Assembly (NCBI RefSeq): GCF_000210095.1
Contig: NC_021039.1
Span: forward strand, 2,204,113 to 2,268,112
Direction: 5' to 3'
DNA from: Ruminococcus champanellensis 18P13 = JCM 17042
GTDB taxonomy: Bacteria; Bacillota; Clostridia; Oscillospirales; Ruminococcaceae
Length of the DNA: 64,000 bases
Part shown: in pieces, positions 5,324 through 46,676 of the stretch
Layout: every line of letters starts with the position of its first letter
Numbering within the stretch: position 1 is the stretch's first letter
The notes under the pieces: generated by a model
Databases searched by the model: none
Told to the model about the DNA's origin: nothing
What the model saw: the letters and a program-made list of their open reading frames with translations, nothing else
Made by a program: the position numbers and the translations under genes

Positions 5324-6403
5324 ATGAAACTGAGAAACTGGATGGCTGTTGGTCTGGCAGCCGCCCTGCTGGTGGTACCGGTGGAGGAGCGGTATCGACT
5401 GATGCCCCAAGCCACACAGCTGACTGCGGCGGCAGCAGACAATTCCTGCGGAGATAACCTGACCTGGAGCTTAAGCGGCTCCACCTTGTACATCAGCGGC
5501 AGCGGCAAAATGACGGATTATGCCTCTTACGAGCCAAGCCCCTGGTATGACAGCCGGGACTCCATTCAGTCCGTTTCTGTATCCGGCGCCACCACGATCG
5601 GCGCTGCCGCCTTTGCAAACTGTACGAAGCTGACTTCTGTAAATCTACCCAACGGCATTACGTCCCTGGGTGCTGCTTCCTTCAGCGGATGCACGGCACT
5701 GACCGGTCTGTCCCTGCCAAGCACCATAAAAACCATCGGGAAAAGTGCATTTTACAAATGCTCCGGACTGCAAAGCCTGACCATTCCGGATGGAGTCACC
5801 TCAATCGGTGATTTTGCCTTTTACAAATGTACCGCATTGACCTCTGTGACCATTCCGGCATCCGTCAGCAGCATTGCGCTGGACTCCTTTAGTAACTGCT
5901 CCAAGCTGACCATCTATGGCTACACCGGTTCCTATGCAGAAACATATGCTTCTAATGCCAGGATCACCTTCCGTGCTCTCGGAACTGTGGATCCGCAGCA
6001 GACGACCACTACAACAACGACTACGACAACGACAACCACCACCACTACAACAACGACAACAACAACTACATCATCCACCACTACTACTTCTACAACTACG
6101 ACTACCACAGTGCCTCAGACCACTGCGCCGCCCATCCAGACAACCACAACCACCAACAGTGCCCAGCCCGAACTGGGGGATATAAACGGGGACGGCACGA
6201 TCAGCGTGGCAGACGCCATCCTGGTATTGCAGTGCAGTGCCCGGCAGCTAGTAGGGGATTGGAGTTATCTGGACTGGCAGCAGCGGCAGCGTGCAGATAT
6301 AGATTCCAACGGAACCATTGATGTCAACGATGCCTGCAAGATCCTGCGATACTGCGCAATGATTATGGCAGGACAGGATCCGGGCGGTGTATCAAACGCA
6401 TAA
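5324..6403 (+). CDS. Secreted BspA-like leucine-rich-repeat protein with C-terminal type I dockerin
   Basis: A 359-residue secreted protein. It has a signal peptide (about 1-37, hydrophobic core 8-20), a short beta-rich module (45-85) and LRR_5/BspA-type repeats at about 90-210, with recurring patterns such as AFYKCxxLxSxTIP. A near-pure threonine linker follows at 226-278, then a type I dockerin at 285-352. The dockerin has two calcium loops, DINGDGTISVAD and DIDSNGTIDVND. The dockerin would anchor the protein to a cohesin-bearing scaffoldin at the cell surface; BspA-like repeats usually mediate adhesion or ligand binding. No catalytic domain is seen. The RBS is AGGAGG before ATG 5324, and a terminator follows at 6411. 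Confidence 0.9.
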   Translation: MKLRNWMAVGLAAALLVVPVEERYRLMPQATQLTAAAADNSCGDNLTWSLSGSTLYISGSGKMTDYASYEPSPWYDSRDSIQSVSVSGATTIGAAAFANCTKLTSVNLPNGITSLGAASFSGCTALTGLSLPSTIKTIGKSAFYKCSGLQSLTIPDGVTSIGDFAFYKCTALTSVTIPASVSSIALDSFSNCSKLTIYGYTGSYAETYASNARITFRALGTVDPQQTTTTTTTTTTTTTTTTTTTTTTTSSTTTTSTTTTTTVPQTTAPPIQTTTTTNSAQPELGDINGDGTISVADAILVLQCSARQLVGDWSYLDWQQRQRADIDSNGTIDVNDACKILRYCAMIMAGQDPGGVSNA

Positions 6404-24838: not shown

Positions 24839-24984
24839 GAAATTCACAGTAAAAAGCACCTATCAAAAAAATGGACAGCAGGTTTCAACAAAATTCGCAT
24901 GCAGTTGGGGGTATAATTGTGACAAAGCGCAAGGGCGGCAAAAGCAGTGCCGTTCGACAGGCAAATAACAAGGAGGCGTATTTT

Positions 24985-25317
24985 ATGCTGGAATTTCAAA
25001 CGGAGGAAGGGATACTGCGGGTCATGCTGCAGGGCGAGATCGATCACCACAGTGCGGGACAGCTGCGGGAGCAGATCGACTGCCGACTGGAGGAGCTGCT
25101 GCCAAAGCGGCTGATCCTGGATTTTACCGGTGTGACCTTTATGGACAGCTCCGGCATCGGCTTGGTGATGGGCAGAGTCCGGCAGGCTGCCGCATACGGG
25201 GGACAGGTGGAGATCGCAGTTCCTGCCGGTCACATCCGGAAGGTCATGCAGCTGTCCGGCATTGACAAACTGGCAAACATACATGCGCCGGTGCATCCGG
25301 CTGAGCAGAAAGGATAA
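24985..25317 (+). CDS. spoIIAA: Anti-sigma F factor antagonist SpoIIAA
   Basis: A 110-residue STAS-domain protein. The phosphorylation site is in FMDSSGIGLVMGR; Ser56 corresponds to the serine that SpoIIAB phosphorylates and SpoIIE dephosphorylates. Unphosphorylated SpoIIAA displaces sigma-F from SpoIIAB in the forespore. ATG 24985 has AAGGAGG eight bases upstream; the longer frame from 24871 runs through the promoter region. A TATAAT lies at 24912, but I could not find a convincing -35 or sigma-H box. It is the first gene of the spoIIA operon. Confidence 0.93.
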   Translation: MLEFQTEEGILRVMLQGEIDHHSAGQLREQIDCRLEELLPKRLILDFTGVTFMDSSGIGLVMGRVRQAAAYGGQVEIAVPAGHIRKVMQLSGIDKLANIHAPVHPAEQKG

Positions 25318-25321
25318 TCAA

Positions 25322-25762
25322 ATGAAAACGATCAATGAAATGAAATGCACCTTTCCATCCCTGTCGGTGAATGAGGCGTACGCACGCACAGCAGTAACCG
25401 CATTTGCCGCTCAGCTGGATCTGACCATTGAGGAAATTGCAGATATCCGGACGGCGGTATCCGAAGCGGTAACGAACGCCATCGTACACGGATACCGGGG
25501 CACGGTGGGCACCATAGAGCTGTGCGTCAAGCTGCTGGAGGGCAATGAGGTGTACATACGCATCAAGGACAGCGGATGCGGCATTCCGGACGTGGCACAG
25601 GCTATGGAGCCTCTGTACACCACTGCCGCCGCTGAGGAACGTGCCGGGCTTGGCTTCGCCGTCATGGAAAGCTTCATGGACAAGCTGTCCGTCAAAAGCA
25701 AGGTGGGCAGGGGCACAACCGTGGTCATGCGCAAGCGGCTGGGCGTGACGGTTCCCGTATGA
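25322..25762 (+). CDS. spoIIAB: Anti-sigma F factor / serine kinase SpoIIAB
   Basis: A 146-residue GHKL-family kinase that binds sigma-F and phosphorylates SpoIIAA. The N box is SEAVTNAIVHG (47-57, with Mg-ligand Asn52), the G1 box is DSGCGIPD (83-90) and the G2 region is GLGFAVM (109-115). The length matches the family. ATG 25322 has AAAGGA seven bases upstream and falls four bases after the spoIIAA stop. Its end overlaps the sigF start by four bases (ATGA), which indicates translational coupling. Confidence 0.95.
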   Translation: MKTINEMKCTFPSLSVNEAYARTAVTAFAAQLDLTIEEIADIRTAVSEAVTNAIVHGYRGTVGTIELCVKLLEGNEVYIRIKDSGCGIPDVAQAMEPLYTTAAAEERAGLGFAVMESFMDKLSVKSKVGRGTTVVMRKRLGVTVPV

Positions 25763-26421
25763 GTGCGCCCTGCTCACAACCCCGTGCAGAGGAAAACCTG
25801 GGGCTGGTGCATCTTTGCGCCAACCGGTTCCGGGGACGAGGTGTGGAATATGACGACCTGTATTCTGCTGGATGTATCGGCTTGATGAAAGCAGTCAACG
25901 CCTTTGACACGGAACGAGGCGTGCGGTTTTCCACCTATGCAGTGCCGGTAATACTTGGGGAGATCAAGCGGCTGTTCCGGGACGGAGGCACAGTCAAGGT
26001 CAGCCGGAGCATGAAAGAGTTGTCCATGCGGGTGGTGCGTCTGCGGGACGAGCTGCGCATGCAAAGCGGCAAAGAGCCCACTGTGCAGCAACTGGCAAGG
26101 GAGATGGGGGTAGAGGAAGCAGAGATCGTCCAGGCATTGTGCGTCAGCGTGCCACCGGTATCCCTGACAGATCCGGGGGAAAGCGGGGAAGGACAACTGG
26201 ATATCCCGGTACCGCCGCCGGATACGGAAATCGGAGACGTGCTGGCGCTGCGACAGATCATGCAGACCCTTTCCGAACGGGATAGGATGCTGCTGACCAT
26301 GCGGTATTATCAGAACAAGACCCAGTCCCAGACTGCACAGGCTCTGGGCATGACCCAGGTACAGGTATCCAGACGGGAGAAGAAGCTGCTGCTGACCATG
26401 CGGGAGGAGTTGTTGCGCTGA
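25759..26421 (+). CDS. sigF: RNA polymerase sporulation sigma factor SigF (SpoIIAC)
   Basis: A 220-residue sigma-70-family factor of the sporulation sigma-F/B/G class. Region 2 is seen at about 30-70 (GCIGLMKAVNAFDTERGVRFSTYAVPVI), region 3 at about 90-135 and the region 4 helix-turn-helix near 185-207 (QSQTAQALGMTQVQVSRREKK). There is no obvious truncation or frameshift. Gene order spoIIAA-spoIIAB-sigF is the classic operon, so this is sigma-F rather than sigma-G or sigma-B. In Bacillus and clostridia it starts forespore transcription. Confidence 0.94.
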   Translation: MSAPCSQPRAEENLGLVHLCANRFRGRGVEYDDLYSAGCIGLMKAVNAFDTERGVRFSTYAVPVILGEIKRLFRDGGTVKVSRSMKELSMRVVRLRDELRMQSGKEPTVQQLAREMGVEEAEIVQALCVSVPPVSLTDPGESGEGQLDIPVPPPDTEIGDVLALRQIMQTLSERDRMLLTMRYYQNKTQSQTAQALGMTQVQVSRREKKLLLTMREELLR

Positions 26422-26459
26422 AGCGGATTCCGTGATATAATCAAGCTGAGGTGACGACA

Positions 26460-26969
26460 ATGACGCATTACTATTATGGCAACGGAAAAGGAAAGACCAC
26501 CGCAGCATTGGGAATGGCTGTACGAGCCGCCGGACATGGTCTTCCGGTATGTGTGGTACAATTTCTCAAGGGCAGCTTCAGCGGAGAAGTGAAAAGCCTT
26601 GGGGTTTTGCCCCAAGTGACACTGATACGCCTGCCAAAGGATTACGGATTCAGCTTTCAGATGACGCAACAACAAATGCAGGAGATCACAGCCCAGCACA
26701 GCCACATGCTGGAATCAGCTGCTGCATGGGCCAAGCAACATCCGGATGGACTGCTGATCCTGGACGAGATCGGAGATGCGGTGGAGCTGAAATTGATCGA
26801 TGTAGATCTGGTGAAGCAGCTTGTGATGCATCCCATGGCGGAGCAGATTTACACCGGACATGCAGAACAGCCGCTGTTTACAGAACATGCGGATTATGTG
26901 ACAGAATGCAGATGTGTACGGCATCCACATCAGTCCGGCGTCCAGGCACGAAAAGGCATTGAATATTGA
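26460..26969 (+). CDS. cobO: Corrinoid adenosyltransferase (CobO/BtuR family)
   Basis: A 169-residue P-loop enzyme that transfers adenosyl from ATP to cob(I)alamin. The N-terminal P-loop is GNGKGKTTAALG (about 7-18). CVVQFLKG (about 34-41), the LLILDEIGDAV Walker B region and the C-terminal VRHPHQSGVQARKGIEY are family signatures. ATG 26460 follows GAGGTG at six bases; GTG 26451 is the alternative. It is 38 bases after sigF and may be read from the same transcript, with a terminator at 26979. No other cobalamin gene is visible nearby, so it probably serves salvage. Confidence 0.9.
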   Translation: MTHYYYGNGKGKTTAALGMAVRAAGHGLPVCVVQFLKGSFSGEVKSLGVLPQVTLIRLPKDYGFSFQMTQQQMQEITAQHSHMLESAAAWAKQHPDGLLILDEIGDAVELKLIDVDLVKQLVMHPMAEQIYTGHAEQPLFTEHADYVTECRCVRHPHQSGVQARKGIEY

Positions 26970-27216: not shown

Positions 27217-27250
27217 AAAAAAACCAGAGTGTGAAATCATCACACTCTGG
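27217..27250 (-). terminator. Intrinsic terminator after the cohesin-GH25 gene
   Basis: CCAGAGTGTGA and TCACACTCTGG form an 11-bp stem with a 5-base loop; a run of seven T follows on the minus strand. Confidence 0.9.
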
Positions 27251-27268
27251 CTATCTGATCATTGCACC

Positions 27269-28771
27269 TTAAAACCCATTAAATCCGTATTTCTGCATGA
27301 TTGCCGGATAATCTTTATAGGCATAATTCAAGTCCGTACTACCGGATACGCCGTTGACCGTTCCGGTATGGCTGTATTGCCACATCCCATATGCACGAGA
27401 AAAAGCGGGCTTTTCGGTTTTTGTATGCGCCACCCAGATATCATGCTCCGATTGACAGGATACCGGCACATTATTGGTCAAAAATGACGCATAACTATAC
27501 AGCGTACAATAATATCCTGCATTTTCCACCGTGCTGCAAAACGTATCAATGATCGCTGCAACGGTGCTCTTACTCAAGGACTGCTGGGTGCTGTCCTCAA
27601 TATCAAAAACCAGCGGGAAATCAAACTGATATCCCTTTACAGTTTTCAAAAACAATTCCGCCTCCGCTTTAGCCCCTGCTGCATCTGTCGCATAGCTGTA
27701 CCAGTATGCACCACAGTACAGCCCGGCTTTTTTTGCTCCTGCAACATTCGTTGCAAAGGTGGGATCCACCTGGGAAGCCTCCCTGCCGTAGCCGGCACGA
27801 ATGATCGCAAAATGGTAACCATCCGCCTTAACCTTTGCCCAATCCACTGTGCCCTGCCACTTGGAAACATCAATGCCGTCATAAATCTGTCCCTTAGGGC
27901 CTGTGGAGGTTGTTGTAGTAGTGGTAGTTGTCGTTGTTTCCAAAGGAACCGTCGTTGTGGTAGTAGTCACCGGCGGCAGGATCACTTCCTCCCGCACTGT
28001 AACGGTGCCCTGTGTGATCACATAAGGCACCTTCTGGTTCCCGGATTCTTCAATGGACTGCACGACCATCTCCAGCGGATACACACCAACGGGCGTATCC
28101 TCCGGGATCTCCACATATACCGTAAACAATTCACCATTATCCGTATACCGTACCGCTGAAGTGGAGTATACCGCTGCCACATTGCCGCCGGATACTGCAC
28201 GAAGTGTCAGATCCTGATCCGGCTGGGTCAGCTTCAGGTTTCCGTCCTCGCCGGTCTGCATGGTTAAATAGTCCCCTTGGGTCATGCTGAAGCTCATAAT
28301 AAAATTCTGAAAGCCAGGATTTCCGGACACAGATACAGTCACCGGCACCACATCGCCGCCATAGCCCACCGCCTTGGACACAAACAAATGTGCATACTCA
28401 GACTGGGACTCAAGCAGCTGCCGTTTCCGCAGCACATTATCAAAAGCGTTAATTACGCCGTTGCCGTCAATATCATATGTATCATCTGCTGCGGGCTCCT
28501 GCGTAGATTTGCAGATTGCCTGATTGATCTGCGCGCAGCTGGGCAGGCGGATCGTTTCGGTCAGATCCCCCTCAGTGTCGTTGATATCTTTTGTGCTGAC
28601 ATTCAAAACATCAGAGGTTTGCTCAGCAACAGCATCCGTCCCCACAGATACTTCCGGCACAGCAATGTCCCCTGTCTGTACAGTCTGATCTGCCGCATAA
28701 ACCGTTGACTGTAAAGCCATCAGAGCCGATACAGCCCATGCAGCAATCAGCTTTGTAACTGGTGTTTTCAT
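27269..28771 (-). CDS. Secreted GH25 lysozyme with EF-hand segment and cohesin-like domain
   Basis: A 500-residue secreted protein. It has a signal peptide (1-26), an acidic spacer and a single dockerin-like calcium loop (DIDGNGVINAFD, 100-111). A beta-rich domain at about 128-268 has the look of a cohesin: it starts LFVSKAVGYGGDVVPVTVSV and ends with the PVGVYPLEMVVQSI and VTQGTVTV-type strands. A threonine linker spans about 272-297. The C-terminal GH25 muramidase has Asp301 in GIDVSKWQG and Asp390/Glu392 in FDIED. GH25 enzymes cleave peptidoglycan between MurNAc and GlcNAc. A cohesin would let a cell-wall hydrolase hold dockerin proteins. The GH25 call is firm; the cohesin call rests on motif resemblance. 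Confidence 0.85.
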   Translation of the reverse strand: MKTPVTKLIAAWAVSALMALQSTVYAADQTVQTGDIAVPEVSVGTDAVAEQTSDVLNVSTKDINDTEGDLTETIRLPSCAQINQAICKSTQEPAADDTYDIDGNGVINAFDNVLRKRQLLESQSEYAHLFVSKAVGYGGDVVPVTVSVSGNPGFQNFIMSFSMTQGDYLTMQTGEDGNLKLTQPDQDLTLRAVSGGNVAAVYSTSAVRYTDNGELFTVYVEIPEDTPVGVYPLEMVVQSIEESGNQKVPYVITQGTVTVREEVILPPVTTTTTTVPLETTTTTTTTTTSTGPKGQIYDGIDVSKWQGTVDWAKVKADGYHFAIIRAGYGREASQVDPTFATNVAGAKKAGLYCGAYWYSYATDAAGAKAEAELFLKTVKGYQFDFPLVFDIEDSTQQSLSKSTVAAIIDTFCSTVENAGYYCTLYSYASFLTNNVPVSCQSEHDIWVAHTKTEKPAFSRAYGMWQYSHTGTVNGVSGSTDLNYAYKDYPAIMQKYGFNGF

Positions 28772-28815: not shown

Positions 28816-28844
28816 AGTATAACATAAAATGCGCAATTTGTGAA
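28816..28844 (-). promoter_or_regulatory. Promoter for the cohesin-GH25 gene
   Basis: Minus-strand TTCACA (28844-28839), a 17-base spacer and TATACT (28821-28816). Confidence 0.6.
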
Positions 28845-28967: not shown

Positions 28968-28996
28968 TTGACATTTTCAAAAAGATGCGGTATAAT
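28968..28996 (+). promoter_or_regulatory. Perfect-consensus promoter for tRNA-Thr
   Basis: TTGACA, a 17-base spacer and TATAAT. The A and T tracts just upstream (28924-28963) could act as an UP element. Confidence 0.9.
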
Positions 28997-44825: not shown

Positions 44826-46676
44826 ATGAGAAAACAGAAACGCCAGTTGTCCGTCCTGCTGGCTTCTGCTGTGGCAATGACTACCCTGCTCAGCTTTCCC
44901 GGCGGCGCAGTATCCTCCGACACACTGACCACCTACGAGTTTGAACAGGGCGTGATCGACCGTGCCAAGCAGTACGATGCAGGCTGGACAGACACCAACG
45001 ATGCAGGCGATACCTACGACTGTACGGATCCCACCGGCAGCGGCTTTGTGTATCTGACCGACAAGGGCAGTTCCGTTACCTGTACAGTGGAGGTGGAAAA
45101 AGCCGGGCTGTACAATATGAATATCCGCTATCTGCAGCCCAATGACACCAACAAAAAGGTGCAGTATCTGAACATCAACGGCTCCAATCAAGGAGAAGTC
45201 ACCTTCCCCTATAATCTGAAGTGGAGCGAGATTACCACGCTGGTCACCCTGCGGGAGGGCAGCAACAGCATTGAGCTGAAGGGCTACTGGGGCTATACCT
45301 ACCTGGACAGCTTTACTCTGACCCAGGCGGACGAAAGCATTTCTCAGCTTTCTCCCACGGATTCTCTGTCCAATCCTCACGCCAACGACACCACGAAGCG
45401 GCTCTACGCTTACCTGCGCAGTGTGTACGGCAACCACATTCTTTCCGGTCAGCAGGAAATGTGCGGTTCCCACAACTACAATTACAATGCGGATCCTACC
45501 TCCGGATTCATCAAGGACAATGAGGCGGAGTTCACCTATATCCAGGAGCAGACCGGCAAGCAGCCCGCCATCCGGGGCATTGATTTCCTCACCTATCACC
45601 TGGATGAAAACGGGGAGCTTTCCTACCAGGACTATGCCGCAGAGCGTGCCATCGAGTGGACCAACAAGTACGGTGGCATCGCTACCATCAGCTGGCACTG
45701 GAGCGTCCCCTCCAGCACCGGCAATTACGCTTTCTATGTAGAATCCGCCAATGCAAACTATACGGATTTCAGCATCTCTAAAGCTGTCACTGAGGGCACC
45801 AAGGAGCACGAGATTATCATGAAGGATATTGAACTAGTGGCAAGCAAGTTTCAGATGCTGGAGGATGCAGACGTGTCCGTCATCTTCCGTCCCCTCCACG
45901 AGGCAGAGGGCGCATGGTTCTGGTGGGGCGCTGAAGGCCCGGAGCCCTGCGTCAAGCTGTACCGGCTGCTGTACGATCAGCTGACCAATGTGTACGGTCT
46001 GGACAATATTATCTGGGAATGGACGGGCTACACCACCCCCAATTCAGCTGCATGGTACCCGGGGGATGATGTGGTGGATCTGATTGGCTATGACAAGTAC
46101 AATGTCAGCGACGGCATCCCCAACCCCAGCGCCATCGCCTCCACCTTCTATGGGCTGGTTGCCAGCACCAACGGACAGAAAATGGTTGCCATGTCTGAGA
46201 ATGACGCAATTCCATCATTGGAAAATCTGGTAAATGACCGGGCTGCTTGGCTGTATTTCTGCCCCTGGTATGGGTACTACCTGACCGGAGAGGTCAACAA
46301 CCCGGTGGATCTGCTGAACGAGATCTACAACAGCGAATATTGCATTACGCTGGATGAGCTGCCGGATATCCGCAGCTTCCCGCTGGATGCCCCCTCCACC
46401 ACTGCTGCATCCACCACAGGCTCCGGAACGGTCACAACCACCGCTACCACAACCTCCCTGTACGGGGATGTGAACGCAGACGGCATTGTAGATATTGCAG
46501 ACACGGTGCTGCTGGCACGGTACATCGCCCAGGACAATGCAGTGAAGGTCAGCGAGGCAGGGCTACAGAATGCGGACTGTGTGCTGGATGGCAACATTGA
46601 CGCATCGGATCTGACCGCCATTGCTCGCTACCTTGCCCATCTGACCGACGCAGATCAATTGGGGATCAAGCCATAA
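44826..46676 (+). CDS. Secreted GH26 beta-mannanase with CBM35/6-like module and dockerin
   Basis: A 616-residue cellulosomal enzyme. It has a signal peptide (about 1-30), a CBM35/CBM6-like beta-sandwich (about 35-165, YEFEQGVIDRA to GYTYLDSFTL) and a GH26 catalytic domain (about 185-510). The acid/base is Glu359 in RPLHEAEGAWFWWG and the nucleophile is probably Glu458 in MSENDAIP. A short Thr/Ser linker leads to a type I dockerin with loops DVNADGIVDIAD and DCVLDGNIDASD; the second is less regular. It should cleave beta-1,4-mannan and attach to a scaffoldin. ATG 44826 has AAGGAG ten bases upstream; the longer frame from 44763 starts in the promoter. Confidence 0.93.
   Translation: MRKQKRQLSVLLASAVAMTTLLSFPGGAVSSDTLTTYEFEQGVIDRAKQYDAGWTDTNDAGDTYDCTDPTGSGFVYLTDKGSSVTCTVEVEKAGLYNMNIRYLQPNDTNKKVQYLNINGSNQGEVTFPYNLKWSEITTLVTLREGSNSIELKGYWGYTYLDSFTLTQADESISQLSPTDSLSNPHANDTTKRLYAYLRSVYGNHILSGQQEMCGSHNYNYNADPTSGFIKDNEAEFTYIQEQTGKQPAIRGIDFLTYHLDENGELSYQDYAAERAIEWTNKYGGIATISWHWSVPSSTGNYAFYVESANANYTDFSISKAVTEGTKEHEIIMKDIELVASKFQMLEDADVSVIFRPLHEAEGAWFWWGAEGPEPCVKLYRLLYDQLTNVYGLDNIIWEWTGYTTPNSAAWYPGDDVVDLIGYDKYNVSDGIPNPSAIASTFYGLVASTNGQKMVAMSENDAIPSLENLVNDRAAWLYFCPWYGYYLTGEVNNPVDLLNEIYNSEYCITLDELPDIRSFPLDAPSTTAASTTGSGTVTTTATTTSLYGDVNADGIVDIADTVLLARYIAQDNAVKVSEAGLQNADCVLDGNIDASDLTAIARYLAHLTDADQLGIKP

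Follow-up and report, generated by a model that had tools for sequence, protein, structure and literature searches.

Ruminococcus champanellensis carries, within the 64,000-nucleotide stretch of its genome that we analysed (the window), an open reading frame in which a lysozyme domain shares one chain with a cohesin-like domain and a single dockerin-like calcium loop. This combination raises the question of what a peptidoglycan hydrolase would be doing among the building blocks of a cellulosome, and what part the lone calcium loop might play. The window has a G+C content of 53.08%, and a value of 53.07% is given for R. champanellensis in a passage of PMC8865330. The genome of this strain, called the own genome below, comprises 2,573,208 bases in one contig.

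Domain organisation of the 500-residue ORF

The ORF lies on the minus strand and encodes 500 amino acids from an ATG at position 28771, 5' of which the motif GAGGGAG is present. Its features are collected in Table 1. The original prediction had given the order as signal peptide, calcium loop, cohesin-like domain, Thr linker and GH25, and Pfam, sequence profiles and reading of the sequence show this order to be correct.

Table 1. Features of the putative scaK gene, with positions counted in the window.
Feature	Residues	Position	Strand	Basis
Whole gene, putative ScaK scaffoldin-lysozyme, 500 aa		27269..28771	(-)	ORF and translation
Signal peptide, cleavage after VYA estimated	1-26	28694..28771	(-)	By-eye reading of sequence
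Dockerin-like segment	77-120	28412..28543	(-)	Dockerin_1, own-genome search and profile A2
EF-hand loop DIDGNGVINAFD	99-110	28442..28477	(-)	Canonical EF pattern
Predicted divergent cohesin module	126-262	27986..28396	(-)	Sequence profiles
Thr-rich linker	263-297	27881..27985	(-)	By-eye reading of sequence
GH25 domain	298-483	27323..27880	(-)	Pfam and lysozyme structures
Promoter-like TTCACA-17-TATACT, about 45 bp 5' of the ATG		28816..28844	(-)	Weak
Terminator-like hairpin, 13 pairs then T run, 17 bases past the stop		27222..27252	(-)	Weak

The C-terminal domain matched the Pfam model Glyco_hydro_25 over its complete length (model positions 1-180 of 180) with residues 300-475 and 123.8 bits, and it also matched the lysozyme structures 4kru, 1jfx and 2wag. 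In alignments with 4kru and 1jfx, residues D301, D390 and E392 fall on Asp, Asp and Glu, respectively, and we take Asp301 and the DxE pair Asp390/Glu392 to be the catalytic residues of GH25. Judged by these matches, the protein carries a complete GH25 domain with the predicted catalytic motif. The own genome has four GH25 matches, and a cohesin was scored in this ORF only.

The promoter-like and terminator-like sites near the gene are weak because such sites are hardly commoner than in shuffled sequence (five promoter-like sites observed for 3.6 expected, and three hairpins for 2.2 expected). On the opposite strand, a perfect promoter-like TTGACA-17-TATAAT stands at 28968-28996 (+). Among the neighbouring genes, three adjacent ORFs at 24871-26421 (+) resemble, by reading only, an anti-anti-sigma factor, an anti-sigma kinase and a sporulation-type sigma factor in a spoIIA-like order, and they are followed at 26451-26969 by a gene that reads as CobA/CobO.

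The middle domain is predicted to be a divergent cohesin

When the whole protein was scanned with Pfam, Cohesin was not listed. Scored alone, the middle domain matched model positions 4-139 of 139 with 17.3 bits (E 0.0055), under the cut-off of 24.1 bits, and it is not among the 12 matches to PF00963 in the own genome. Standard profiles often miss ruminococcal cohesins according to a passage of PMC11557425, and in lying below the Pfam cut-off the domain resembles the cohesins mentioned there. A profile built from 12 cohesins cut from own-genome ORFs, with the domain under study left out, gave it 44.6 bits, whereas the best of 1000 shuffles made from the four GH25-linked domains reached 11.3 bits. 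In the reverse direction, a profile made from these four (A1, composed of the present domain and those of L029, L015 and L033) recovered seven of the 12 PF00963 matches of the own genome at E 0.001 and missed five. Among the cohesins that PF00963 recognises, the best was found at 1.6e-10, and another module of its ORF scored 5.0e-11. Searched against the PDB, A1 matched 8ajy at 3.1e-6, 4iu2 at 3.5e-6 and the ScaE cohesin 2zf9 at 1.7e-5; 8ajy and 4iu2 are "autonomous cohesin" chains, and all three presumably come from R. flavefaciens. The best member of A1 reached 7.8e-7 against Pfam Cohesin, and we infer that L033 is the row nearest to that model and that it helps A1; the own-genome cohesin profile is independent of L033.

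AlphaFold models were of low confidence: computed with nine sequences, the whole mature protein had a mean pLDDT of 54.9 and was good only in GH25, and residues 75-268 with three sequences had a mean pLDDT of 48.9. Foldseek with the latter model placed two N-acetylhexosaminidases at the top and the cohesins 4wkz and 3ul4 at ranks 3 and 5, mixed with other beta folds and with query TM-scores of 0.20 to 0.36; as the query model was poor, this list carries no weight for or against the nine-strand jelly roll of a cohesin. On profile evidence, the assignment of the middle domain as a divergent cohesin is firm. An unrelated Ig-like fold was considered and rejected since profiles in both directions indicate cohesins, and the comparison with shuffles, together with PDB cohesins at 3e-6, supports the earlier description of residues 128-268 as cohesin-like.

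Two further sets of cohesin-like modules came to light in the own genome. The first belongs to an 838-aa ORF (L009, G000:C1:2560472-2562283, minus strand) with three cohesin modules and a C-terminus that is dockerin-like at 18.4 bits, under the cut-off; its third cohesin was recovered by profile A1 and missed by PF00963. The second is a lipoprotein, its signal recognised by reading (L227, G000:C1:2186569-2187183, minus strand), with the relatives L222, L223, L224 and L225. The C-terminal part of L227 looks like a circularly permuted cohesin, in which the end of the module would precede its beginning. When the two halves were swapped, with the cut placed at whichever of many points scored best under the own-genome cohesin profile, the score rose in all five proteins of this type (33.1 to 62.3, 30.4 to 51.4, 28.2 to 48.1, 23.2 to 44.4 and 21.6 to 45.1 bits) and fell in all 16 ordinary cohesins, 12 of which had built the profile. 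For a sixth protein, L226, the swap raised the score from 12.3 to 15.2, though the swapped stretch is not its cohesin. The own genome and the four g109 genomes looked at all encode proteins of the L227 type, and a literature search on circular permutation in connection with cohesin, dockerin and Ruminococcus returned no match.

The ORF very probably encodes ScaK, a lysozyme of the cellulosome

A passage of PMC9210761 describes R. champanellensis ScaK as a protein of 52.3 kDa with a GH25 domain, one cohesin and no dockerin, in which 103 unidentified residues lie ahead of the cohesin. The product of our ORF, less its signal peptide, has a mass of 51.2 kDa and 98 residues ahead of the cohesin, and a purification tag could be the source of the difference. 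The phrase "GH25 lysozyme in R. champanellensis ScaK" appears in a passage of PMC6780208. A 559-aa ORF of the own genome, which has a cohesin, a dockerin and, by reading, an SGNH domain, fits ScaH as described in PMC9210761. The G+C values given above and the presence of a cohesin in just one of the four GH25 ORFs also agree with this identity. Matched by this published description rather than by letters, the ORF very probably is ScaK of R. champanellensis. The idea that a peptidoglycan hydrolase had been made into a scaffoldin was right, and as ScaK is in print, this main claim was already known.

The citing papers PMC6780208 and PMC6403190 state, in the passages concerned, that the R. champanellensis cellulosome has lysozyme activity, and from the link between lysozyme and cellulosome PMC6403190 proposes a "lyticome", a complex of several enzymes that would lyse bacteria. 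We regard it as highly likely that ScaK is a secreted GH25 lysozyme which joins the cellulosome through its cohesin, by binding the dockerin of a partner. Morais in 2016 is said to have found that the GH25 of ScaK is non-autolytic and lyses several species, and that its cohesin binds the dockerin of a scaffoldin to give a cell-free cellulosome complex. ScaK would be secreted, its cohesin would take up the partner's dockerin and so add the lysozyme to the cellulosome, and the complex would then bear a bacteria-lysing activity alongside its fibre-degrading enzymes. Most simply, this activity would serve to lyse competing bacteria or to recycle cell walls at the surface of the fibre. The link between lysozyme and cellulosome is notable, yet it is already in print.

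The original prediction had put the same parts to another use, in which GH25 would hold ScaK on the cell's own wall so that the cohesin displays dockerin enzymes without sortase, or in which the wall would be opened for cellulosome export. Peptidoglycan is the substrate of GH25 and ScaK has a signal peptide, both of which agree with such a role; however, Pfam shows no further domain in ScaK, its C-terminus reads as free of a sortase signal, and the lysozyme is reportedly non-autolytic and part of a cell-free complex. Nor is there a cellulosome cluster around scaK, as the window holds no PF00963 cohesin match and its above-cut-off dockerins lie about 20 kb off, at 6173-6346 and 46461-46634. We consider this role very unlikely: apart from GH25 itself, neither the domain content nor the C-terminus lends support to wall attachment or to remodelling for export.

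The arrangement recurs in related genomes

Some match to the whole ScaK protein was found in 245 of 297 sampled genomes of the family, and among the matches listed those from outside the own genus lie almost wholly within GH25. A profile of the EF-hand and cohesin part (A6), run on the same 297 genomes at a threshold of 1e-12, also recovers ordinary cohesins. With both domains confirmed, it located a cohesin and GH25 on one ORF in at least seven genomes, which are all three of the own genus and four of g109, the latter being the g109 genomes among the matches listed; seven is a lower bound because only the best 5 or best 12 candidates per genome were scored. The earlier description of the cohesin-GH25 combination as unusual therefore stands as far as rarity goes, although the arrangement itself was already in print. 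Outside these seven, one metagenome-assembled genome, Ruminococcus sp. UBA4275, encodes a further cohesin-GH25 protein (L033); its GH25 groups with three of the g109 GH25s in a tree of 88 rows, and L033 may belong to the g109 group.

The four g109 proteins (L059, L151, L161 and L162) and L033 carry the one-loop segment, cohesin and GH25 in the order of ScaK and are 23-30% identical to it in the EF-cohesin part. In them, unlike in ScaK, no helix-like stretch stands between the signal peptide and the loop. In the 88-row tree the GH25 of the own genus adjoins cohesin-free relatives and the other cohesin-linked GH25s stand elsewhere, so that the label "with cohesin" needs three changes, two of them forced by well-supported branches; a single cohesin-GH25 clade was not rejected (p-AU 0.111, with 47 rows hand-picked from the 88). 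The g109 sequences indicate that at least one genus besides the own one has retained the arrangement. Relatives of ScaK had been noted in print before, as a passage of PMC10641937 reports a protein akin to it in Ruminococcus sp. CAG:379. For R. flavefaciens, a passage of PMC4081043 describes single-cohesin proteins that lack a dockerin and contain a region to which no function is assigned; it also gives the name ScaK to a putative cohesin of strain FD-1, called too divergent for testing in a passage of PMC5301203.

The N-terminal segment resembles a shortened dockerin

A pattern search of the ScaK ORF found one canonical EF loop only. Dockerin_1 of Pfam matched residues 89-120 with 14.4 bits over model positions 26-57 only, under its cut-off of 22.9 bits, and in the own-genome search with PF00404, which gave 76 matches at E 10 or better and 68 above the cut-off, the segment scored 17.6 bits over model positions 23-57, again below it. 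The two calcium-binding repeats of a dockerin were thus not found in ScaK by either the pattern search or Dockerin_1, which show one loop. About 50 residues without a match follow the signal peptide, and the segment itself combines one calcium loop with a stretch alignable to the helix of full dockerins, the second loop of a dockerin being missing. A profile of the one-loop segments (A2) matched two-loop dockerins of the own genome, the best at 1.3e-8 and with both loops visible, and the ScaK segment therefore most likely derives from a dockerin. This bears out the original prediction of a single dockerin-like calcium loop. The single EF-hand would, accordingly read, be a shortened dockerin.

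The half of the dockerin model that is matched is the second in ScaK and the first in L151 and in L119, a CE2-type esterase of the own genome (L119:1396-3117). L119 has an N-terminal one-loop dockerin-like segment at G000:C1:639973-640122 (+), and its order by reading is signal peptide, helix, one loop and CE2-type esterase.

Single-repeat dockerins are known from R. flavefaciens FD-1, whose group-2 dockerins are described in a passage of PMC2930009 as having one repeat, thought to be partial or a new single-binding kind, and in a passage of PMC5301203 as half-dockerins that bind the cohesins of ScaE and ScaH. As cohesin-binding half-dockerins thus exist in R. flavefaciens, a docking role for the ScaK segment is conceivable. 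It would make the segment a functional half-dockerin that docks ScaK to a cohesin and leaves its own cohesin to carry another protein. Consistent with this, the loop is canonical in six of the eight cohesin-GH25 proteins (five of the seven sampled, and L033). Seven loops were aligned, including that of L030, which has no cohesin, and omitting the degraded loop of L162. Phe stands at loop position 11 in all seven and Lys-Arg at positions 17-18 in five; positions 10, 11, 17 and 18 are predicted recognition positions for R. albus in a passage of PMC4081043. The second N-terminal segment, on the CE2-type esterase, and a group-2 half-dockerin in the solved entry 9gvb also speak for docking. Against it, L015 lacks the loop and that of L162 is degraded, and Lys-Arg at 17-18 is common anyway among 64 own-genome loops from 59 loci (13 of 64, with Phe at 11 in 6 of 64). 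Compared with the PDB, the one-loop segments matched 9gvb_B, the one group-2 chain in the comparison, only at E 0.34 over nine positions, and their best match was 4dh2_B ("Dockerin type 1") at 5.1e-7. Membership of the ScaK loop in group 2 is accordingly unsupported, and we hold a functional half-dockerin to be unlikely.

A remnant that serves only as a calcium-stiffened spacer before the cohesin would agree with the loss or decay of the loop in two of the eight relatives and with a score under the Dockerin_1 cut-off. On the other hand, four of the six proteins with an intact loop show just the low identity to ScaK in the EF-cohesin part given above. Weighing these points, we see a spacer as evenly poised between probable and improbable. 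The furthest-reaching proposal sees in the ScaK-like lysozymes a small conserved family whose N-terminal half-dockerin still docks onto a cohesin, so that each lysozyme would be an adaptor, docking by one module and receiving a partner by the other; it strikes us as quite improbable. A search of the literature, mostly outside subscription journals, for "single EF-hand" or "half dockerin" with cohesin returned no match; this negative is weak, as PMC5301203 itself, in the passage concerned, uses "short (half) dockerins".

Comparison with known systems

The present analysis adds a probable assignment for the N-terminal region of ScaK, together with the indication that a second genus, at the least, has retained the arrangement. 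A dockerin-like segment within the "unidentified 103-residue stretch" goes beyond the published passages on ScaK and, as far as these extend, looks undescribed. The recurrence of the cohesin-GH25 arrangement among the sampled family genomes likewise adds to those passages.

The protein agrees with ScaK of R. champanellensis in its GH25, its single cohesin, the lack of a recognised dockerin, the roughly 100 residues before the cohesin and a similar mass, and no difference was found: the N-terminal stretch called unidentified there contains the one-loop dockerin-like segment here. The group-2 half-dockerins of FD-1, as a passage of PMC2930009 describes them, are like the ScaK segment in having a single recognised calcium repeat. 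They are C-terminal, whereas the ScaK segment is N-terminal, and 9gvb_B is hardly similar in sequence to ScaK-type segments.

The activities of GH9 and GH44 enzymes are other than muramidase. An enzyme and a cohesin share one chain, as in ScaK, in ScaA of A. cellulolyticus with GH9 and in ScaR3 of B. cellulosolvens with GH44, both named in a passage of PMC6780208, and in ScaH with SGNH, as given in a passage of PMC9210761. Unlike that of ScaK, the enzymes of ScaA, ScaR3 and ScaH are not muramidases.
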